From IMG/VR virus record IMGVR_UViG_3300037234_000268, positions 1-40,240 of that record: a DNA stretch of 40,240 nucleotides. The stretch is one strand, 5' to 3'. Below the pieces are notes generated by a model. It was not told where the DNA came from and made no database searches. It saw only the letters and a list, made by a program, of their open reading frames with translations. This DNA is from a virus. Position numbers and translations under genes: made by a program. The stretch's first letter is position 1. Every line of letters starts with the position of its first letter. Positions 8,253 to 40,240 of this stretch are shown here, in pieces.

Positions 8253-8960
8253 TTATGTTTCATTAAATAATGCTGTTTTTCCATCGGCCGTTAAGCTCCT
8301 ATCCCAAAGCCTTAAACCATCGAACGCACCTGACATATATCTACCAAAGTTTACACCTATTCTTACAGGTCTATTGTTGTTTGTATGCCCTTCTATTGAA
8401 AATGATCCTGTAGACAATAGGGAATTATCTATCCACTGATTAAATGTTACACCTGTTTTCTCTAACAAAAGTAAGTGCCAACTTCCATCCGCTATATTTC
8501 CCACAGGTGAGGGTATTAATGTTTGTGCTCCATTATCACGCCTAACAAACATATTTACAGCACCCGATGTACTAGGAAGGTATTCGAACCAAAATTGATT
8601 CGGTGTTGTTCCCGCGCCCGTTAAAGATGAGAAATTGCCTATGACACTTCTTGACGATGTGGTATCCGTTGATTTAACCCATATAGCGCATGTAAAATCT
8701 ACGTTATATAAATCCTCCCATGCAGATAATGTAGGCAATTCAACATATTGACTTGACGCAGCACTTAGAGTGATAGCCTTTGCTCCTATTTTTCCAGTAG
8801 TATAGGTAGCTCCATTTGGAATAGTTGCATTCCTACCATTTCCGCTTGTATCATTTACATTATCTTCAAATAGATATTCACCTAGTAAACCATCAGTAGG
8901 TATACCACCACCTGTTTTTGCAAATGGAAAAGGAGTCGGAGTGGCAGTCATTAAATTCAT
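8253..8960 (-). CDS. LamG/concanavalin A-like fibre or adhesin protein
   Basis: The protein has 235 residues. After a short lead (1-20) it has the form GLLGEYLFEDNVNDTSGNGRN, then ...TCAIWVKS...SWHLLLLEKTG...IDNSLLSTGSFS...RIGVNFGRYMSGAFDGLRLWDRSLT, the jelly-roll pattern of LamG-like domains that bind glycans. ATGA overlap with the upstream gene indicates coupling. It is the last virion-type gene before lysis and is probably a receptor-binding or fibre-tip subunit (inference). Confidence 0.75.
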   Translation of the reverse strand: MNLMTATPTPFPFAKTGGGIPTDGLLGEYLFEDNVNDTSGNGRNATIPNGATYTTGKIGAKAITLSAASSQYVELPTLSAWEDLYNVDFTCAIWVKSTDTTSSRSVIGNFSSLTGAGTTPNQFWFEYLPSTSGAVNMFVRRDNGAQTLIPSPVGNIADGSWHLLLLEKTGVTFNQWIDNSLLSTGSFSIEGHTNNNRPVRIGVNFGRYMSGAFDGLRLWDRSLTADGKTALFNET

Positions 8961-9937: not shown

Positions 9938-11764
9938 CTATTTAAAAAAGCTCATTATATCAGAATCAAATCCTGCTAATGGCATAATATTGCTACCTAA
10001 ATCTGCAACCATTTCAGTAGATGTATATATTTCTTGGCTTGATATTCCAACTGTGCCAGCACTTCCAACAGAGCCAGCTCCCTCACTTCCTAGTCCACCA
10101 GCTCCAAATGTACCACCGTTAATAGTAGCAGTTAGATTGCCATCATTTGTGTATGTTTTAGCTCGTAATATAATACATCCACCACCGCCACCGCCTGCTC
10201 CTCCGCCACCAACGTCCATAGTACCACCAGTGCTACTACCACCAAATCCACCATCTCCGCCAGAAACATCAAATGTAACAGCAGTAGCAAAATTAATATC
10301 ATTCTTGGAAAACATTCCTATTACACCACCGCCTGCTCCTCCGCCACCACCACTTCCAGCGTTTTGACCACCAGGTGCAGAAAATACACCGTTATTACCA
10401 TCCTCACCAGAAAAATCTTTTGACGTATATATAGTTATGTTGTTTGCTATAATAAACATAGCTGGACCTCTTTCTCCACCATCTCCACCCAATGTCTGGA
10501 CACCAGTACCGCCTGTTTGAACATCAGCACCACCAGCACCGCCTGCTCCTCCGCCAGAAACTACAGATGCACCACCAGCTCCACCACCACCACCGGAAGC
10601 TATGTCTGGTGTGTCTCCAGTTACTCCATCGCCACCATCTCCACCAGCTCCAGAAGAAAAGTCTGTTATAATTCTATTAGTAGCACCGCCAACTGTAGAT
10701 CCACCTGCAACACCGCCACCACTAGAAGAACCATCTCCACCAGCTCCGCCACTTCCAGCGTTTCCTATTACTGTATCGGAATCATTTGATACTGTAAATG
10801 ATGATCCTACAGTGTCGTAATAATTACCAGCGCATTGTATTTGTAACATTGGCATACTCAATAATTGAAATCCACTATAACTAGATGCGTCTTTTCCAAC
10901 TACTGTTATCGCTGCATCTATAATGCAATTATTACAAGTGTATTTAATTAGATTTAATTCAGTGTTAGCAGATATATATATATCCGGTAGCATTTCATCT
11001 TGACTATGTACAAAATTAAATATATTCTCTTCATTGTTTAGTGGAGGATTCGCTTCTACTACAAGAGCTGCTATAACACATTGATTCGAAGCGTAACTTG
11101 GGAAAACTGGTGCTGGTGCTACTGAACCTGTCAACACCGTTATAGTGGCATCAGAATTTATAACAACGTAATCAAGTCTGTTAAATGCAGATGCAGAACC
11201 TGATATTGTGCCACTGTATCTACTAAAATCAAGGCTTCCGGATGCACTACCAGAATCATTACATGTTATCGTGAAGTTATTATCATCAATTACAGATGCA
11301 ATAACATAATCTTCGATCCCTAATGTGCCACCACTTAACGTACTATCGTTATAGATTGTTTCACCACCGGAAAACCCGTGATTGTTTTCTGTTATAGTCA
11401 TAGTAGTAGTGACTCTAGACCAAGATGCAAAACCTCTTGTCATTGATACACCACCGACAACCGCTTTAAATGCAGATATTTTCACTGTCATATTTGGCGT
11501 GTCTTTTTCAGATACAATACCGCCTGCTAATAGTTTAGTTTCTATTAAACCGATTGTATTAAGTCTGGTATCAAGTGATATATCATAAGGTCGTGCTGCT
11601 GTTGTCTCTGCATTGGTAGTTCCAATAGTTGAGGCCGCTAAAGAATCACATAGCGCGTTATGTCTATTTCTAATATTAGCATAGTTCTTCCTATGTTGAC
11701 CGCTTGTAATATCGGCTTGGTAATTTACTATTGAAATATCGCTTACTGTTAATTTATCACTCAT
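9938..11764 (-). CDS. Glycine-rich tail fibre / receptor-binding protein
   Basis: The protein has 608 residues. The first 320 are ordinary beta-rich virion sequence. Residues about 335-575 are dominated by poly-glycine tracts broken by short beta segments such as GGGGAGGGGGGCIILRAKTY. This architecture is known from glycine-rich adhesins such as T2-type gp38, whose poly-glycine II sandwiches present receptor-binding loops; homology here is not shown. It sits in the fibre cluster downstream of the tail tip. Its composition creates long spurious ORFs on the other strand. Confidence 0.75.
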   Translation of the reverse strand: MSDKLTVSDISIVNYQADITSGQHRKNYANIRNRHNALCDSLAASTIGTTNAETTAARPYDISLDTRLNTIGLIETKLLAGGIVSEKDTPNMTVKISAFKAVVGGVSMTRGFASWSRVTTTMTITENNHGFSGGETIYNDSTLSGGTLGIEDYVIASVIDDNNFTITCNDSGSASGSLDFSRYSGTISGSASAFNRLDYVVINSDATITVLTGSVAPAPVFPSYASNQCVIAALVVEANPPLNNEENIFNFVHSQDEMLPDIYISANTELNLIKYTCNNCIIDAAITVVGKDASSYSGFQLLSMPMLQIQCAGNYYDTVGSSFTVSNDSDTVIGNAGSGGAGGDGSSSGGGVAGGSTVGGATNRIITDFSSGAGGDGGDGVTGDTPDIASGGGGGAGGASVVSGGGAGGAGGADVQTGGTGVQTLGGDGGERGPAMFIIANNITIYTSKDFSGEDGNNGVFSAPGGQNAGSGGGGGAGGGVIGMFSKNDINFATAVTFDVSGGDGGFGGSSTGGTMDVGGGGAGGGGGGCIILRAKTYTNDGNLTATINGGTFGAGGLGSEGAGSVGSAGTVGISSQEIYTSTEMVADLGSNIMPLAGFDSDIMSFFK

Positions 11765-19747: not shown

Positions 19748-20719
19748 CTATGCTGTCTTAATGTGTAGTCTAGCAAGAGGGATATTTTTGCTATAAGCAG
19801 CACCCAATGTCCAGTTTCCACTTGTTGCAAGCTCTACATCAGATACATCTTCTTTTGCAGCCACGCCACAATTCATACCATCAAAACCAATTCCATAATT
19901 GATTTTAAAGTTAGTAATTGTACTAAATTTTTTGTTTACTGTTGCCTCTGCAACCTTAACTATTGGAGTAGAGTTACCACGAATTACAAGAGACTTAGCT
20001 CCTATAAAATAAACATAGTATTTATTACTACCAAGAGCTGCAAATTTATCATTTACAAATGGCGTTAGTCCAAGTACATTATTTGGAAGTTGCCCAGCGT
20101 GCACCATAGCATCTTGTGCCGAGACACCGAATGTATTTGTAGTTGCGGCAACTAGTCCAAGTTTAACTAACTTCCAGTATACTTCTGAACGCATAGCCAT
20201 TGCGCCACCGTTAAGATTAACGCCAGCATCTCCGAGAGTTGCCTTAGCAGATACCAATTCGTCAAGAGATACAACGTCAGTTCCATCACCTTCTTGATTA
20301 GAAGTAAGAGCTGCGCCTGTTCCTTTGATAGTAGATATTGCACTATTATCAAGATACTGTGCTGATGCATTAGATATAGACTGCGCCATATTTGCATTTT
20401 CTTCTGGAAAGCTTTTGTCTTTTATTTCTTCGATAACATCTGGCTGATCTGCTGACTGATATCTCCAAATGATAGGATGTTTGATCCGTGTTTGTGTTTC
20501 TTTTTGACTAGAGATAGTATCCCCAGCTTTAAGTGCTTGACCTGCTGTATCTTGGAAAAGAGTTTGTCTTAGTTCAGATACTTGTGTTCCTGATAATGGT
20601 CTAGTATCTAGTTGTACTATTCCGCTAGCAAAAATCTTTGCAGCGTATTGCCAATCTTGCCCTACTAATTTTTCAATATTTATCGGGTCATAAATATCAT
20701 TGTATGATGTTGAACTCAT
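19748..20719 (-). CDS. Major capsid protein
   Basis: The protein has 323 residues. The N-terminal arm (SYNDIYDPINIEKLVGQDWQ) is followed by a coat-protein pattern with GDTISSQKETQTRIKHPIIWRY, VVSLDELVSAKATLGDAG and MAMRSEVYWKLVKLGLV, and a beta-rich C-terminus. This arrangement (E-loop region, central spine helix, P-domain strands) fits an HK97-fold coat protein. A strong AGGAG site and its location after scaffold and before connector genes support high expression and this assignment. Confidence 0.85.
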   Translation of the reverse strand: MSSTSYNDIYDPINIEKLVGQDWQYAAKIFASGIVQLDTRPLSGTQVSELRQTLFQDTAGQALKAGDTISSQKETQTRIKHPIIWRYQSADQPDVIEEIKDKSFPEENANMAQSISNASAQYLDNSAISTIKGTGAALTSNQEGDGTDVVSLDELVSAKATLGDAGVNLNGGAMAMRSEVYWKLVKLGLVAATTNTFGVSAQDAMVHAGQLPNNVLGLTPFVNDKFAALGSNKYYVYFIGAKSLVIRGNSTPIVKVAEATVNKKFSTITNFKINYGIGFDGMNCGVAAKEDVSDVELATSGNWTLGAAYSKNIPLARLHIKTA

Positions 20720-25840: not shown

Positions 25841-26473
25841 TTAAAAGAATGTATTTTGATCTGTATGGTTTTTCAATCGCTTTTTAGCACCATCATAGTA
25901 ATCTTTATCAAGTTCACAGCCGACTAAATCAAAACCCATATCATGACAAGCTATTGCAATGCTTCCAGAGCCGAGATGTGTATCAAGAATTATATCACCT
26001 TCTTTGGCATAATTCTTTAATAGCCATTTATAGAGGGCAACTGGTTTTTGTGTTGGATGGATTCTGGTTTCTTTGTTTTTCATATCCTCCTGTAACATAC
26101 CATTCCACCTATGTTTAAATTTTCTTACTGCAGTATCAAAAGACGCCCATGCCAATTCACAGTCAGCGAAATTTCCAGTATTGTCTTTATCCCAAACAAT
26201 AAAACATGAAGTATTATTTAGATGGTCTATAAAATAATTTCCTCCCCAAATAATTTGATTTTTTGATACTCTCTTTATCTCCTGAAAATATCTTTTTTCA
26301 GGTATTGAGTCATCCCATTTGCTTTTATATTTTTTGGATTCACCCAAATTACTGCTCCCGACTCCACCATCTGCATTTATCCCATATGGCGGATCAACAA
26401 TAGCCAAGTCAAATGCGTTATCATCACACTCAGCCATATATTTCATATTATCTATATTGTGTAATTTAATCAT
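25841..26473 (-). CDS. Site-specific DNA amino-methyltransferase (DPPY type, beta order)
   Basis: There are 210 residues from ATG 26473, 7 nt after GAGG; the ATG at 26479 is too close to it. AIVDPPYGI (catalytic DPPY, 27-30) precedes IHPTQKPVALYKWLL and DTHLGSGS (165-171, SAM-binding loop), the beta-class order of N6-adenine or N4-cytosine methylases. No large target-recognition domain is present. It has its own early-type promoter, no endonuclease partner is visible beside it, so it is probably an orphan methylase protecting phage DNA from host restriction. Confidence 0.9.
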   Translation of the reverse strand: MIKLHNIDNMKYMAECDDNAFDLAIVDPPYGINADGGVGSSNLGESKKYKSKWDDSIPEKRYFQEIKRVSKNQIIWGGNYFIDHLNNTSCFIVWDKDNTGNFADCELAWASFDTAVRKFKHRWNGMLQEDMKNKETRIHPTQKPVALYKWLLKNYAKEGDIILDTHLGSGSIAIACHDMGFDLVGCELDKDYYDGAKKRLKNHTDQNTFF

Positions 26474-26490
26474 AATCATTCCTCTAGTCT

Positions 26491-26523: not shown

Positions 26524-27846
26524 TTAATATATCTGTATCTGTTCACGATTTCGCTTTATAGGGAAACAATTGCTGATTGCGTAATAGAAAGCTGTTGCAA
26601 GATGTGAATAATCGTTATGTTCGGGTAATGAGCCATCTATCGTCTTTCCGTCCTTATCCTTCTTATATGTCCAGTTTTCAAATACCTCTACCATATAAGG
26701 GCACTGTGTTTCATTTATACGGATATACGGCATATATTGATTAACGTTATGTATCATATCGGCTACAGATAATCGTTTACTTGGCTTCTGTAGATGTATA
26801 CCCTCTGTTTTCAGTAAGCTGAACCAACTCTTTAATTGTGCATCTCTGGCAACGCCTGCAGGATCACCAGCGTGCTGTAAGTTTTGGTAACCCTTGGCTT
26901 TCACAACATCAGCATAGTATTTATAATCTTTTTCATTGTTACGATATTCATCGAATATGCTTATTATTAAGCCTAGTTTGTTTTCGGGTGTTGGATGGAA
27001 ATAGTGTACTTGAAAGAATATCAGTGCTGTATCTGCTGCTATACCAAAATCCCAACCACACCACTTCTCTGATTCTGGCACTGGACTAATCGGTTCTGGT
27101 AATAGACTGACATCTCTATTAAACTCGTATACAGTACCCTCTGACACCTCACACCAAATACCATCTCTCAAACGCTTACCTCTTACACCTGTCATTGACT
27201 TCATTATCTCGAAGTATCTAGGTGATAAGTTCTTTACGTTATCCTCCATAGTCCAAGATAACCGGCATTGTGTACTTAAATCAACCTTTTCGCCTGTCTC
27301 TGGATTAATACCTTTTATGAATTGCTTATAAACCCAGTGTGATGGATTCTTTGGATTAGTATCTGTTATGAATTTTAATGGATATGATTTATGCTGTAGT
27401 CTACTCTTCATAGCTTGATATGTATCGTATGGGTCTTCTACCACTTCATTAATAAATATGATTGCCCATTCAGTACCCATAACCTTATCCAGTTGGTCAC
27501 CTTTTTCCAAACCACCTAATACAATAGTTGATCCGTTGTGAAATGTAACTATGAAATCCTGATTAGATTGAACTATTTTATATAGGCTTTTACTCATCGT
27601 AGCTTTTATATACGGAATCAATGTTTGTTTCCATACAGATTTTTTAGCATTAGCCAGATAATACCTTCCGATTAAAGCATTAGCACCTGGGTATTTCTCT
27701 AGGTAATCTACAATATACGCTATTATATCAAAGGTCTTGCCACATCTACTGGGTCCATCGAATAGATAATAGATATAGTCATCATTGCATAAGAGGTCGT
27801 ATGCTATGTTTTGCTTATCAGTGAATACATAAGGTTCATCTATCAT
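26524..27846 (-). CDS. terL: Terminase large subunit
   Basis: The protein has 440 residues. The N-terminal ATPase has Walker A GPSRCGKT (31-38) and Walker B AIIFINE (129-134, catalytic E134), followed by FITDTNP as the coupling motif. The C-terminal RNase H-like nuclease has CGWDFGIAADTAL (D266), HAGDPAG (D328) and EHNDYSHLATAFYY (D412), the three metal-binding acidic positions. It would pump and cut DNA at the portal. The type is close to the Terminase_3/6 (PBSX-like) group. The ribosome site is weak. Unusually it is about 3.8 kb from the small subunit gene. Confidence 0.95.
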   Translation of the reverse strand: MIDEPYVFTDKQNIAYDLLCNDDYIYYLFDGPSRCGKTFDIIAYIVDYLEKYPGANALIGRYYLANAKKSVWKQTLIPYIKATMSKSLYKIVQSNQDFIVTFHNGSTIVLGGLEKGDQLDKVMGTEWAIIFINEVVEDPYDTYQAMKSRLQHKSYPLKFITDTNPKNPSHWVYKQFIKGINPETGEKVDLSTQCRLSWTMEDNVKNLSPRYFEIMKSMTGVRGKRLRDGIWCEVSEGTVYEFNRDVSLLPEPISPVPESEKWCGWDFGIAADTALIFFQVHYFHPTPENKLGLIISIFDEYRNNEKDYKYYADVVKAKGYQNLQHAGDPAGVARDAQLKSWFSLLKTEGIHLQKPSKRLSVADMIHNVNQYMPYIRINETQCPYMVEVFENWTYKKDKDGKTIDGSLPEHNDYSHLATAFYYAISNCFPIKRNREQIQIY

Positions 27847-27858
27847 TAATTCTTTGTT

Positions 27859-28071
27859 TCATTCGTATGGGTCAGACTCTAAACCAAGACATCTCCAACA
27901 GGTACATTTATTTACATTACTTCTTTCGTAATTTATACAAGCTGTGGGATAACAACTAGAACTATGTGTCTGCGTACTAAGAGCACAATGAGTAAATAAA
28001 TTAGCTGGTTTATGTATGCAATCTTTACAAATTGGGCTACCGTCTGTAGTTGAGTAGTATATATCACTCAT
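27859..28071 (-). CDS. Small Cys-rich protein before the large terminase
   Basis: There are 70 residues from ATG 28071, which forms an ATGA overlap with the methyltransferase stop. About eight cysteines occur as CKDC, HCALS, SCYPTAC and CTCWRC, so it probably binds zinc or forms a cysteine-knit fold. Function unknown. Confidence 0.6.
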   Translation of the reverse strand: MSDIYYSTTDGSPICKDCIHKPANLFTHCALSTQTHSSSCYPTACINYERSNVNKCTCWRCLGLESDPYE

Positions 28072-28601
28072 TTTATCAGCCACCATTCTAGCACATCAAT
28101 TCCACTCTTAGCAGCTTTTTTATACGCTTCTTCTTTATATGATAACCCGTTGCTTTCACAGAATTCATCTAGTGCTTTACGCATACCAGCCTGCTCTATA
28201 TTATCACCACAGAACATACCACCCTTCTTTAGATACTTCCAGTACTTTGGCAGTTCTTGCTGAACGTGTTCATATGAATGATTGCTATCAAGATATATGT
28301 AATCGAATTGGCTATCTTGGAATAGGTCGAACTTTAGACTGTTAGCTCTGATAATAATAACATCGTCCTTACCCTCAAACTTCTCAAAAGTCTGCATAGC
28401 TACATCTAGCATATGAGGGTAATCATAAGACTCCCATTTCTTGAACCATTGGTCTACTAAATACAGCTTATCAATGTTAAAAGCGTTATATAGATTGTAA
28501 GCGTTGCGCCCTTGCATAACTCCAATCTCTAACAGTGTTACAGGCTTATCACCCATCAGCTTCTTGTATTCTCTGGCACTTGGCTTTAATCCATCATTCA
28601 T
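28068..28601 (-). CDS. SAM-dependent methyltransferase (Methyltransf_24-like), copy 1
   Basis: The protein has 177 residues. Motif I is LLEIGVMQGRNAYNLYN, the acidic strand-2 end is LYLVDQW, and DYIYLDSNHSYEHVQQEL then LKKGGMFCGDN give the later strands. This class of small methyltransferases acts mainly on sugar, lipid or small-molecule hydroxyls. It is closest to the gene at 30153-29644 (LEIGV.QG.NA and IDKLYLVD are shared). ATGA overlap with the DUF551-like gene shows operon coupling. Confidence 0.8.
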   Translation of the reverse strand: MNDGLKPSAREYKKLMGDKPVTLLEIGVMQGRNAYNLYNAFNIDKLYLVDQWFKKWESYDYPHMLDVAMQTFEKFEGKDDVIIIRANSLKFDLFQDSQFDYIYLDSNHSYEHVQQELPKYWKYLKKGGMFCGDNIEQAGMRKALDEFCESNGLSYKEEAYKKAAKSGIDVLEWWLIK

Positions 28602-28828
28602 TTGTTATTATCCTTTGGTGGTTGTGGTAATGGTTGCCAATGTGTGACTATGACAGATAGCGTTTCCTCCATTGGGTTATCGCATACATTCGAGAACCAT
28701 ACGCCACGTCTTAATTCAGCAATGTGTGGGATACCATACCACCCCTCTGGACTCATTTTACTTTGCACCAGAACCCAATCAAAATCTGGTTTCTCTGGTA
28801 ATCTATCTTTTACACTTATCCATTCCAT
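28598..28828 (-). CDS. DUF551-like protein
   Basis: The protein has 76 residues. WISVKDRLPEKPDFDWVLVQ at the start and VTHWQPLPQPP at the end are the hallmark of DUF551, a small phage and prophage family of unknown function. It sits between two methyltransferase genes in one operon; AAGGGG gives a good ribosome site. Confidence 0.8.
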   Translation of the reverse strand: MEWISVKDRLPEKPDFDWVLVQSKMSPEGWYGIPHIAELRRGVWFSNVCDNPMEETLSVIVTHWQPLPQPPKDNNK

Positions 28829-28838
28829 TATTCACCCC

Positions 28839-29345
28839 TTATTTTATTATATACCAGCTATTATACTTCTGCTGGTTACCGTCTGACTTATGCCCTTTAA
28901 CAATGTTAGGCGTATATCCAAACTCTTTACAAAATCTGTCTACTGCTTTAATAGTCTTTGGGAAGTCTGTATGGTAATCGTGTCCACTAAATATACCGCC
29001 TTTCTTAAGCTTAGGAAACCAATCATATAATAATTTACCGTTCTGTTGTCCATCGCTTGCATAGGCATCAATGTATATAAAATCAAAAGCATCATCTTGA
29101 AACGTATCTAATGCACTATCAAAATATTGTCGTCTGATTATACTTCTATATCCATAAATTGAAAGCATTTTATGACACTTATGATATTCTTTAGCATCGT
29201 GGTGATCGCTCCATCTATCAATTGAATATAGTAATCTTACATTGCTATGCTGTAATATAACATCACTGTAATGACCTGCTGCCACTCCCAGCTCCAAAGC
29301 TATTCCATCGTCTTTGATTAATGATGGTAAATCATTCCTTGTCAT
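28839..29345 (-). CDS. SAM-dependent methyltransferase (Methyltransf_24-like), copy 2
   Basis: The protein has 168 residues. ALELGVAAGHYSDVIL, LYSIDRWSDHHDA, FDFIYIDAYASDG and LKKGGIFSGHDYH correspond to the motifs in copies 1 and 3, but the sequence is more divergent, consistent with an older duplication or separate acquisition. It overlaps the upstream 86-residue gene by ATGA. Confidence 0.8.
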   Translation of the reverse strand: MTRNDLPSLIKDDGIALELGVAAGHYSDVILQHSNVRLLYSIDRWSDHHDAKEYHKCHKMLSIYGYRSIIRRQYFDSALDTFQDDAFDFIYIDAYASDGQQNGKLLYDWFPKLKKGGIFSGHDYHTDFPKTIKAVDRFCKEFGYTPNIVKGHKSDGNQQKYNSWYIIK

Positions 29346-29602
29346 TTAATCGCCTGTCGACAATCAAGGCAATACTCCTTAAGTATAACCTCAAAATCAC
29401 CTTTTTCTCTAATCAATATCTGCCTACCTAACATCACAGGTTCAGATTTAGTTTTACAAACAAGTCTTAATCCACAATCTAACTTATTGTAATCAGAAAT
29501 ACTAACACTAAACGCAAATACCTTCTCTAATTCAATCGCATCTATTATAGTCTGTAGTGATAACTTCTTGTAATTTTCTTCGAATAATCTTTGTATCTTC
29601 AT
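29342..29602 (-). CDS. Hypothetical protein in the methyl/sugar-transfer cassette
   Basis: The protein has 86 residues, with YNKLDCGLRLVCKTKSEPVMLG in the middle and a CLDC pair near the end. No family recognised. It is coupled by ATGA to copy 2 of the methyltransferases and preceded by AAGGG. Confidence 0.6.
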   Translation of the reverse strand: MKIQRLFEENYKKLSLQTIIDAIELEKVFAFSVSISDYNKLDCGLRLVCKTKSEPVMLGRQILIREKGDFEVILKEYCLDCRQAIK

Positions 29603-29629
29603 AATTGTTTCCCTTAATTTGTTTTGTAC

Positions 29630-29658
29630 ATTATACCATTATCTCATTTAATTATCCA
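29630..29658 (-). promoter_or_regulatory. Weak candidate promoter inside the cassette
   Basis: Minus strand: TGGATA (29658-29653), 17-bp spacer, TATAAT (29635-29630) with a GG before the -10 box. Only 4 of 6 bases match at -35, and it overlaps the end of the upstream gene. It could give extra transcription of the distal cassette and large terminase. Confidence 0.35.
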
Positions 29659-30153
29659 CCAATCACCAACAGCTTCATTCTCATTCTGCTTAAAATTAAC
29701 CTCTCTGCATTGTTCTGTACAATACTTATTAACTCCCTGTTGTACTCTCTCTGGTAGTTCATCATTCCAATCGTGTCCGGCTATCATACCACCATTCTTT
29801 AGTAGTGGCATAAATGTATCAAGCTCACTGTAAACGTGGTCTGGATTGTGGTTATCATCTAGGTATATATAATCAAAGTAATCACACGGGAATATATCAG
29901 CTACTGCTGGGCTTAGTGCTTTAATGATAGTTACTTTCTTGATATACTTATCGAATAGATCAGCCGTTATAGATAGATTATCGATAGCATTATCAGTGTA
30001 TTTTTTCATCCATCCATCGACTAAATATAGCTTATCAATAGTGAAGTTGTTATATATATCCATAGCGTTTTCACCTTGTAATACACCTATCTCTATGGCT
30101 GTTATTGGCTTAGTACCGACTATCTGTTTTAATGCTTTTAATGATTCTCTCAT
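29644..30153 (-). CDS. SAM-dependent methyltransferase (Methyltransf_24-like), copy 3
   Basis: The protein has 169 residues. AIEIGVLQGENAMDIYNNFTI, DKLYLVDGW, DYIYLDDNHNPDHVYSEL and LKNGGMIAGHDWNDELPERV give a complete class I fold. It is clearly a paralogue of the gene at 28601-28068. It lies just downstream of the glycosyltransferase-like genes, so methylation of a transferred sugar is the simplest joint role (inference). Confidence 0.8.
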   Translation of the reverse strand: MRESLKALKQIVGTKPITAIEIGVLQGENAMDIYNNFTIDKLYLVDGWMKKYTDNAIDNLSITADLFDKYIKKVTIIKALSPAVADIFPCDYFDYIYLDDNHNPDHVYSELDTFMPLLKNGGMIAGHDWNDELPERVQQGVNKYCTEQCREVNFKQNENEAVGDWWIIK

Positions 30154-30168
30154 TGTCTATGCCCTTAT

Positions 30169-30324
30169 CTAGTTTTTATAAGATAATAATTTGATTGTTT
30201 TTTCGTGTGACTCTTTACTAGACACCATCTGATAATGCATATTGTGTAGAGCCTCAATCAATTCACCTTTTGTAAGTGTTTCAACTGGTTTTCCCATGTA
30301 TTCTAAATGTATTGTTTCAGCCAT
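30169..30324 (-). CDS. Small helical protein (51 residues)
   Basis: MAETIHLEYMGKPVETLTKG, then a helix with LIEALHNMHYQMVSSKESHEKTIKLL. ATG at 30324 follows GGGAG by 7 nt, and the gene fills the gap between glycosyltransferase-like and methyltransferase genes, which makes it likely real. Similar 'M.ETI.YMGK.V..LTK.ELIEAL' proteins are common near phage genes; function unknown. Confidence 0.6.
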   Translation of the reverse strand: MAETIHLEYMGKPVETLTKGELIEALHNMHYQMVSSKESHEKTIKLLSYKN

Positions 30325-30336
30325 AATTTATCTCCC

Positions 30337-30942
30337 TTAATTTATCTCTTTAATTATATCATACATCAGAAACATTTTCACTATATCTTTCTCTCTACTC
30401 ATATTATGATTGCCATCACCTGGCTTCCACTTCTCATCTAAGTTATGTATGCCACTCTCAAAGAAATCAAATCCTGCTATTGTTACATTACCGCCTAAAC
30501 GTATCATCTCCATAATAGCACTTAATCCAGTAGTCATAATTCGATCTGTCATTAGATAGTTGAATATGAAATCACTGCCTAATGTATTGTATGTTGGTAT
30601 TTTACATTTTCTGTAATAATTATTATTAAGACAATCAACAGCTATTCCATCAGATTGCTTGCTATGTCTAGTGAAATCTAGTGCAGGATATTTGTGAATT
30701 ATATACTTGCATTCATCAGCTAACAATTCGGCTTCTGTTTTCTTAATTGACGTACCGAAAAAGCTATAATATATATCAGTACTTCTGCAATCGTTAAAAT
30801 GCTTATAGTTGTTTAATCTGACAATTATATCAAACTCATTTAGCGTACGTTCATCTACATTTTTAACACACGGTGCAGATCCTAATACAATGACAGACTT
30901 ACTATTGACATAATCATATATCCCTTTATGTGATATTAGCAT
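30337..30942 (-). CDS. GT29 (sialyltransferase)-like glycosyltransferase
   Basis: There are 201 residues from ATG 30942, 8 nt after AGGA; ATG 30948 is only 3 nt from it. VIVLGSAPCVKNVDERTLNEFD followed by IIVRLNNYK is the sialyl-motif-like start of GT29-type proteins (conserved GSxP...D.VxRxN). TTGLSAIMEMIRLGGNVTIAGFDFFESG matches the second conserved region. It overlaps the GT9-like gene by about 17 nt. Donor and acceptor are unknown. Confidence 0.75.
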   Translation of the reverse strand: MLISHKGIYDYVNSKSVIVLGSAPCVKNVDERTLNEFDIIVRLNNYKHFNDCRSTDIYYSFFGTSIKKTEAELLADECKYIIHKYPALDFTRHSKQSDGIAVDCLNNNYYRKCKIPTYNTLGSDFIFNYLMTDRIMTTGLSAIMEMIRLGGNVTIAGFDFFESGIHNLDEKWKPGDGNHNMSREKDIVKMFLMYDIIKEIN

Positions 30943-31660
30943 TTTCATTTATCCTATCGTAATCTATCGGCTCATTATCTATTACCGCAATTGACGTATC
31001 TTTGCAAAATATCTTCTTAGGTGTGATGCTAGACATAAATCGCCTGTCTGATTGTAAGCCTTTATGTGACCATACAACGCATAGAGGTACATTCAATCCC
31101 TCTGCTAGTGCTGTTGCCCATCCTTGCTGGGTTACGACCATAGAGCTATTAGATATAGTATCCTTTAATAGGCCATAATGAACATCTCTGCGGTCAATAT
31201 CAATACCTTTGTAAATGTTATCGCCTTTTCCTATTAGACATATATGATACCTATCTTTATAATGGTCAATAATATTCTGTATGTAATTATAATCTGGTGT
31301 TAGTTCTTTTGCTGTTCCAATTCCCATAGGATTATATGGCGCAACTATACATATCCGTCCACCTGCTGAAACATTCACCATTGGCTTACTCAATTCAAAC
31401 GGTATCTCCTTTATCTTAGCAGCCTTGCATATATCTTGCCATTGGTTCGTAGAGTCATCGTACTTGTATTTGCAATAACAGGCGTCTATATCTACAGGCG
31501 TCCTTCTGTTAAATGGCATAAACTGTATATCCATCATATCACTGAATACCTCTGGATAGTTAGTCAATACAGTTATATCGTTATATACGAGACTAAGGTT
31601 CTTTACGATTGCGCTTAGATATATAGCATCACCAAAACCACCATTACCTCTGATTATCAT
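30926..31660 (-). CDS. GT9 (heptosyltransferase)-like glycosyltransferase
   Basis: The protein has 244 residues. GNGGFGDAIYLSAIVKNLSL is the N-terminal Rossmann signature of GT9-type ADP-heptose:LPS transferases. RICIVAPYNPMGIGTAKELTP and VVTQQGWATALAEGLNVPLCVVW (compare family TxDTGxxHlAaAl-xxPxV.lf) give the C-terminal nucleotide-sugar part. It is shorter than the usual 330 or so residues. Its start overlaps the small terminase stop region. Plausible targets are host LPS or a virion protein. Confidence 0.7.
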   Translation of the reverse strand: MIIRGNGGFGDAIYLSAIVKNLSLVYNDITVLTNYPEVFSDMMDIQFMPFNRRTPVDIDACYCKYKYDDSTNQWQDICKAAKIKEIPFELSKPMVNVSAGGRICIVAPYNPMGIGTAKELTPDYNYIQNIIDHYKDRYHICLIGKGDNIYKGIDIDRRDVHYGLLKDTISNSSMVVTQQGWATALAEGLNVPLCVVWSHKGLQSDRRFMSSITPKKIFCKDTSIAVIDNEPIDYDRINENANIT

Positions 31661-31961
31661 CAGTACTCTCTATAAACTTCTTTTGGCGTTCAGTTCTAAT
31701 AATAACTGGCTTATCTTCATCACCGGATAATTGTAGCTTTTGATTAGATTTACCATAAGCACGGTCAAGTGCTTCTTTAATAGCCTGTATGTTGCCAGCC
31801 TTACCTTCTGTGGCTAATGTATCAAACAACCCATCTAATATAGAGCCGTCTTTCTCTTCATCGTACTCTTCTAATTTAGCACGCCACAACTCATCTAATG
31901 GTTTACGCTTGCTATTCTTGCCACCCTTGATACTATCAGCCTTAGTCAATTTATGTCCCAT
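31644..31961 (-). CDS. terS: Terminase small subunit-like protein
   Basis: The protein has 105 residues. A basic KGGKNSKRKPLDELWRAKLEEYD opening, a helical ILDGLFDTLATEGKAGNIQAIKEALDRAYGK section and a short C-terminal tail match the DUF5681/small terminase type found before phage large terminases. It would recognise the packaging site. Ribosome site is poor (AGCCGAGAT), and the start lies beside a duplicated TAGCCGAGA. Five enzyme genes separate it from the large subunit. Confidence 0.7.
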   Translation of the reverse strand: MGHKLTKADSIKGGKNSKRKPLDELWRAKLEEYDEEKDGSILDGLFDTLATEGKAGNIQAIKEALDRAYGKSNQKLQLSGDEDKPVIIRTERQKKFIESTDDNQR

Positions 31962-39913: not shown

Positions 39914-40240
39914 TTACAATGAAAGTATAAACTTTTTATTGTCACGCCACCACTTAGCACCGCCATTGTCCATTTTTTCGATTTCTTTATAGGTAAACTT
40001 TTTCCATTTTTGAACAGTATGTAACTGGCAACCGATTTTTATATGCTTATCGCTTACTGTTATTCTGTATTTCATAGAGGAAACAGTTATATATTTTTTA
40101 GTTTTCTCCGCAAATATTTTGGTGACTTTTCCATTTAATGTAAAACTGGAAATATCGCCTTCACTGGAAATATCGCCTTCACTGTAAATATAGCCTTCAC
40201 TGTAAATATAGCCTTCACTGTAAATATAGCCTTCACTGTA
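39914..40240 (-). CDS. Tandem hexapeptide-repeat protein, C-terminal part (gene continues from the left end)
   Basis: There are 108 codons in the window after joining to the frame at 356-1: about five hexapeptides, then FTLNGKVTKIFAEKTKKYI and a C-terminal domain MKYRITVSDKHIKIGCQLHT...KWWRDNKKFILSL. The domain is not recognised, but its regular hydrophobic and Trp pattern looks like a small folded beta/alpha unit. The stop lies 15 nt before the DnaC-like start. Confidence 0.75.
   Translation of the reverse strand, partial: YSEGYIYSEGYIYSEGYIYSEGDISSEGDISSFTLNGKVTKIFAEKTKKYITVSSMKYRITVSDKHIKIGCQLHTVQKWKKFTYKEIEKMDNGGAKWWRDNKKFILSL
40095..40220. repeat. Right copy of the terminal direct repeat
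   Basis: Identical to bases 1-126. After 40220 the right copy continues with another B-type 18-bp unit, while the left copy has an A-type unit at that place, so the two ends differ in repeat order. Confidence 0.9.
40145..40240. repeat. 18-bp minisatellite, right-end copy
   Basis: Units run A A B B B plus six bases. Compared with A A B B A A at the left end, the fifth unit differs. The array reaches the window edge, so its total length is unknown. Confidence 0.9.

Follow-up and report, generated by a model that had tools for sequence, protein, structure and literature searches.

The stretch analysed here (the window) is the entire IMG/VR virus record IMGVR_UViG_3300037234_000268, a metagenome-derived sequence of 40,240 nt, and our subject is a run of nine genes in it that lie on the same strand, with gaps of at most 41 bases, between a DUF5681-like gene and TerL, the gene for the large terminase subunit. 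Two of the nine encode glycosyltransferase-like (GT-like) proteins, three encode methyltransferases (MT1, MT2 and MT3) of the Methyltransf_24 (MT24) family, and four encode small proteins. Such clustering of glycosyltransferase and methyltransferase genes in the structural or late region is what marks a virion glycosylation cassette. The run is on the minus strand, as are nearly all genes of the window. In the order of transcription, it reads as follows: the DUF5681-like small protein (31644-31961), a GT9-like protein (30926-31660), a GT29-like protein of 203 amino acids (30337-30948), a 51-amino-acid open reading frame (ORF) preceded by a GGAG sequence resembling a ribosome-binding site (30169-30324), MT3 (29644-30153), an 86-amino-acid ORF (29342-29602), MT2 (28839-29345), a DUF551 small protein of a kind frequent in phages (28598-28828; PF04448 E = 3.8e-11, phrog_924 E = 4e-13), MT1 (28068-28601), a Cys-rich protein of 75 amino acids that overlaps MT1 by 19 bases (27859-28086), and TerL (26524-27846). 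The 51- and 75-amino-acid proteins have no family match and the 86-amino-acid one has no significant match. Strand and coordinates are those of the initial annotation, except that the best start of the GT29-like gene is 30948, not 30942.

The ten junctions from the DUF5681-like gene to TerL range from +41 to -23 bases, and half of them are overlaps. ATGA-type overlaps, which had been described as occurring between many of these genes, are present at two junctions (those of MT2 and MT1) but not at the other eight, where we have found three overlaps of 17-23 bases and five gaps of 10-41 bases. A consensus scan, which gives weak indications only, detected no minus-strand terminator-like site within the run and one promoter-like site (11/12 match to the consensus) at 32439-32411, directly upstream of the ORF at 32402-32205. 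None of the cassette proteins contains a strongly hydrophobic segment, and the GC content of the cassette resembles that of the flanking DNA. In addition, positions 28292-23828 recur with 100% identity in L001, an IMG/VR contig of independent origin; the match spans MT1, TerL and the portal gene and confirms the junction between MT1 and TerL.

The GT29-like protein has no match of its own in Pfam or NCBIfam and no informative one in PHROG, and PF00777 itself does not match it, but it has relatives in two viral contigs, L006 (36% identity over 181 amino acids, E = 3e-28) and L086 (34%). The L086 relative lies over the PF00777 cut-off of 23 bits (23.6 bits, E = 4e-5) and the L006 relative lies just under it (21.6 bits). 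Sialyltransferases are recognised by the L, S and VS motifs. In the window protein these read FDIIVRLNN, TTGLSAI...VTIAGFDFF and HNMSRE (HxxxxE), and the core positions are invariant in the three phage proteins; the residues G, P, R, N, G and HN are also invariant between the phage proteins and bacterial GT29/GT42 enzymes. As an independent test, the three phage proteins were combined into one profile and searched against 393 genomes of one bacterial phylum (E 1e-3); the profile matched at two places only, both in a single locus. One match is a CST-I (GT42) protein (PF06002 E = 6e-16; Cst-type sialyltransferases in the PDB, E = 5e-14), closest among known structures to Cst-type and lipooligosaccharide sialyltransferases. 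The other is a GT29 protein (E = 1e-12). The pair flanks a cytidylyltransferase gene (E = 1e-22), after which another GT29 gene follows. It is unlikely that two neighbouring matches of the right kind arose by chance. From these homologues, motifs and profile matches we infer that the window protein is a GT29/GT42-type sialyltransferase-like enzyme, in line with the initial GT29 call, and that it would use a cytidine monophosphate (CMP)-sugar donor. No match to it was found by tblastn among 50,697 phage records and 72,556 plasmids, and a scan of genome contigs with the GT29 alignment confirmed none. Side by side, the CST-I (GT42), cytidylyltransferase and two GT29 genes lie in the bacterial locus L223 3329-7492, from the phylum of L173 (titled Spirochaetia).

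All three methyltransferases exceed the curated cut-off of PF13578 (Methyltransf_24; E = 8e-11 for MT1, 8e-9 for MT2 and 6e-11 for MT3) and carry the S-adenosylmethionine (SAM) motif EIGVxxG, so the family assignment made initially for the three genes is correct. MT1 and MT3 are paralogues with 38% identity, and MT2 is the divergent one (24% to MT3). The D-x-Y-x-D-x-N-H box is kept in MT1 and MT3 (YLDxNH in MT3), and is partly lost in MT2, which reads YIDAYAS and has no NH. A profile of MT1, MT3 and their relatives matches O-methyltransferases of known structure (E = 3e-4). Among named virus genomes, the best relative is the WyrdV1 O-methyltransferase, with 37% identity to MT1; MT3 shows 31-35% identity to this protein and to L006, and the bacterial relatives reach 33% at most. 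We have surveyed 146 ORFs flanking the viral MT24 relatives, and found MT24 (10), GT2 (7), GDP-mannose dehydratase (5), FkbM (4), GT9 (4) and cytidylyltransferase (2) among them, so that sugar families prevail. The bacterial relatives are likewise flanked by surface-glycan genes, namely those for glycosyltransferases, sugar dehydratases and FkbM methyltransferases. Since the flanking ORFs are this rich in glycan enzymes, a sugar is the best candidate for the substrate of MT1, MT2 and MT3. A long run of MT24, GT9 and glycan-type genes, including an 837-amino-acid MT-GT9-MT fusion, was noticed in the viral contig L007 (5027-12765).

The GT9-like protein is a more distant case. It has no direct match in Pfam or NCBIfam, nor an informative one in PHROG. 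We therefore give the result of an iterated profile built solely from GT9 proteins of viral MT24 loci, with the window protein left out. In HMMER, the GT9-like protein comes out on top among the 65 window proteins with this profile (E = 2.2e-5, where the runner-up has 0.05), and its 16.4 bits compare with 7.3 for the best of 500 shuffles and also exceed the score of the reversed sequence. The hhalign comparison gives it a probability of 93.8%, and at most 12% to the others. It is thus the sole window protein matched by the viral GT9 profile, which supports the GT9 call indirectly. The N-terminal G-D pair (GGFGD) is kept, but the D-S-G-x-x-H donor-phosphate motif is degenerate, with QQGWATA at the aligned place, where the GT9 protein of L086 retains D-G-G-M-H. 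Neither tblastn against the 50,697 phage records nor pattern scans of viral contigs found another such protein, and PDB sequence searches with the GT9-like and GT29-like proteins returned chance matches only.

Regarding the borders of the cassette, TerL is well identified (PF03237/PF04466; phrog_2 E = 7e-34), and its closest relatives, in spirochaete prophages, share only 33-36% identity with it. The assignment of the small subunit, TerS, is weaker. The DUF5681-like protein matches PF18932 with E = 0.12, below the cut-off, and, of all window proteins, scores best (E = 0.011) against a profile built from the genes that directly precede TerL in other phages; no close relative of it was found, and its hhalign profile comparison was not significant. 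The gene at 31961-31644 is probably that of the small terminase subunit, located 3.8 kb from TerL. That the two subunits are normally adjacent, as the initial annotation stated, agrees with other loci: a small same-strand ORF ends within ~150 bases of TerL in 57 of 61 viral loci (ORFs called mechanically, and so suggestive only), and in nearly all spirochaete prophages examined a helix-turn-helix-like gene of 157-180 amino acids abuts or overlaps TerL, with no cassette there. Elsewhere in the window, 902-1699 encodes a conserved protein common to Leptospira prophages (37-42% identity over 70-95 amino acids), in which it lies ~4.5 kb from TerL.

A search for the cassette in related phages gave a divided answer. 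It is missing from nearly all the spirochaete prophages that carry the nearest TerL, but a similar enzyme set is present in L086 and L006. In L086, a collagen-like gene is followed by MptE-like, MptE-like plus FkbM, GT29, MT24 and GT9 genes, the whole lying between the head-tail connector and head-completion genes. L006 has the same order with two MT24 genes, and the contig ends within GT9. By tblastn, the window matches these contigs in the GT29 and MT genes only, and the capsid and portal genes are unrelated. It follows from this recurrence that the enzyme combination is not unique to the window phage, whereas its position between the terminase genes is.

The initial annotation spoke of a complete sugar-adding and methylating pathway. 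The transfer enzymes are indeed encoded with the packaging genes, as the GT29 homologues and motifs and the resemblance of the MT24 proteins to O-methyltransferase structures indicate, but the pathway is incomplete. No cytidylyltransferase was found in the window genome. Among the first 25 of the 34 Pfam families found in the other window ORFs, which are the scope of the family negatives here and below, there are no nucleotide-sugar epimerase or dehydratase, flippase or integrase families. The record itself probably represents an entire, terminally redundant genome, since positions 1-50 are repeated exactly at 40095-40144 and both record ends reach the same 18-bp tandem array (1-259 and 40095-40240); slippage in this array probably explains why the record is classed as linear. 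As genes for donor synthesis are not found in a probably complete genome, the sugar donors must come from the host.

Based on the above analyses, we propose, tentatively and as a reading that falls somewhat short of being probable, that soluble enzymes made late in infection use CMP-sugar donors of the host to cap a glycan carried by a virion protein, and also O-methylate it. The cassette genes would be transcribed together with TerS and TerL late in infection of this lytic-looking tailed phage. The GT9-like enzyme would add or extend a sugar, the GT29/42-type enzyme would attach an acidic sugar that the host supplies as CMP-Kdo or CMP-nonulosonate, and MT1, MT2 and MT3 would O-methylate the glycan, each at a different position. 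The likeliest acceptor would be a virion protein whose synthesis coincides with that of the enzymes, such as the head (major head protein at 19748-20719), the tail tube, the Gly-rich protein (9938-11764) or the laminin-G-like protein (8253-8960), and a cytoplasmic acceptor fits because the cassette proteins have no strongly hydrophobic segment. The decorated particle might then resist host factors that bind or degrade glycans, or its adsorption might be altered. The Gly-rich protein, of 608 amino acids and with runs of GGGGAGG, is encoded in the tail region, within a GC-rich patch of a genome that is AT-rich elsewhere.

Several points weigh against this proposal. Modification of a virion protein is hypothetical, as are the acceptor and the linkage. 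The GT29-like protein is common to only two other viral contigs, neither with the terminase-gene position. The GT9-like protein may be inactive or use another donor, since its DSGxxH motif reads QGWATA. In addition, AF2 models are poor for both proteins and unfit for a fold search, with a pLDDT of 33 for the GT9-like one, modelled from its single sequence, and of 38 for the GT29-like one, modelled from a three-row alignment.

The main alternative is that the enzymes alter a glycan of the host envelope (lipopolysaccharide (LPS) core, O-antigen or another surface polysaccharide) late or at lysis, and so block adsorption of other phages or re-adsorption to debris. The surface-glycan neighbours of the bacterial MT relatives speak for it, as do GT9 being the heptosyltransferase (LPS) family and the bacterial match of the GT29 profile belonging to the CST-I family, near Cst-type and lipooligosaccharide sialyltransferases; O-antigen conversion is moreover a known phage strategy (PMC11436027). 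On the other hand, the Pfam scans of the window revealed no integrase, GtrA/GtrB flippase, bactoprenol glucosyltransferase or O-antigen polymerase, and the cassette belongs to a packaging operon and is not a moron with its own promoter, while its counterparts in L006 and L086 sit inside a head-tail operon. Both virion decoration and a block to superinfection had been suggested for this cassette. The latter is the weaker idea, because no integrase is seen, the genes are in the packaging operon, and their products, unlike GtrA/GtrB, have no strongly hydrophobic segment. We regard envelope modification overall as rather unlikely, and favour virion decoration because of the late-operon place, the soluble enzymes, the missing conversion machinery, the presence of similar sets in head-tail operons and the precedent in mycobacteriophages described below.

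It is improbable, in our view, that the run is a loose accessory set with no joint product, in which the GT-like proteins have decayed or lack catalytic activity and the methyltransferases work apart from them, with small molecules or proteins, for instance, as substrates. The replaced DSGxxH motif, the MT2 box without NH, the interspersed small ORFs and the fact that no two genomes have the exact gene set in common would suit such a set, but the GT29-like motifs, HxxxxE among them, are intact and do not vary across the three phage proteins, phages of a different lineage carry a similar combination, and all ORFs are open and tightly packed. Modification of phage DNA or of a nucleotide-linked sugar on it, giving hypermodified bases that the methyltransferases would finish, appears very improbable. 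The cassette does adjoin packaging genes, and the genome has separate N6/N4-type DNA methylases (26479-25841 and 905-381). However, neither a pyrimidine hydroxymethylase nor another base-modifying family stood out in the Pfam scans, and GT29/42 enzymes are established to act on glycans. We have rejected this as the main explanation, since the methyltransferases match O-methyltransferases and the neighbours of such genes are glycan genes. Of the two DNA-type methylases (PF01555; phrog_954), the one at 25841-26479 lies between TerL and the gene at the portal position, and the other is at 381-905.

More generally, tailed phages might carry an unrecognised module, found in late structural operons of at least two lineages, in which a GT29/GT42-type CMP-sugar transferase and several O-methyltransferases give the particles a coat of acidic, O-methylated glycans, Kdo- or sialic-acid-like, from host donors. 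We consider this doubtful at present; if true, bacterial viruses would have an analogue of glycan mimicry. Few phages are documented to glycosylate their virions with enzymes of their own, and if two lineages combine a sialyltransferase-type enzyme with several O-methyltransferases, their particle glycans would be expected to be acidic and methylated, and to be made by a few enzymes for which the CMP-sugars of the host suffice. Such glycans would be a testable explanation for evasion of host or animal recognition.

Among known systems, the virion glycosylation cassettes of mycobacteriophages are alike in that glycosyltransferases are clustered with an O-methyltransferase, the enzymes are soluble, and no host-conversion machinery is known. 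According to a passage in PMC11600133, mycobacteriophage glycosyltransferases beside an O-methyltransferase modify the capsid and tail tube (Freeman et al. 2023, PMID 37329881), and cluster O phages have three tandem glycosyltransferases downstream of an O-methyltransferase. In contrast, the window has a GT29/42-type enzyme and three MT24 proteins between the terminase genes, and modification of its virion is hypothetical. P22 gtrABC and D3 oac, which serve serotype conversion, are also phage genes that alter glycans, but the window has neither a flippase nor a bactoprenol transferase nor an acetylase, no integrase was seen, and the location is a packaging operon. With the GT29/GT42 sialyltransferases (PF00777; PF06002, CST-I) the window protein shares three conserved motif regions, and its profile leads to bacterial GT29 and CST-I proteins that neighbour a cytidylyltransferase, whereas it is short (203 amino acids), has no direct Pfam match and is not accompanied by a CMP-sugar synthetase in its genome. 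A sialyltransferase is also annotated in a tailed phage, the Azotobacter phage TayeBlu (PMC12772287); its alpha-2,3/2,8 type suggests GT42, and the passage presents it as a single gene and describes no cassette. GT29 genes occur in algal viruses, and in the part of the literature covered we have found no phage GT29 cassette. Overall, sugar- and methyl-transfer cassettes are a known kind of phage system, and a GT29-type sialyltransferase within one seems to be new.

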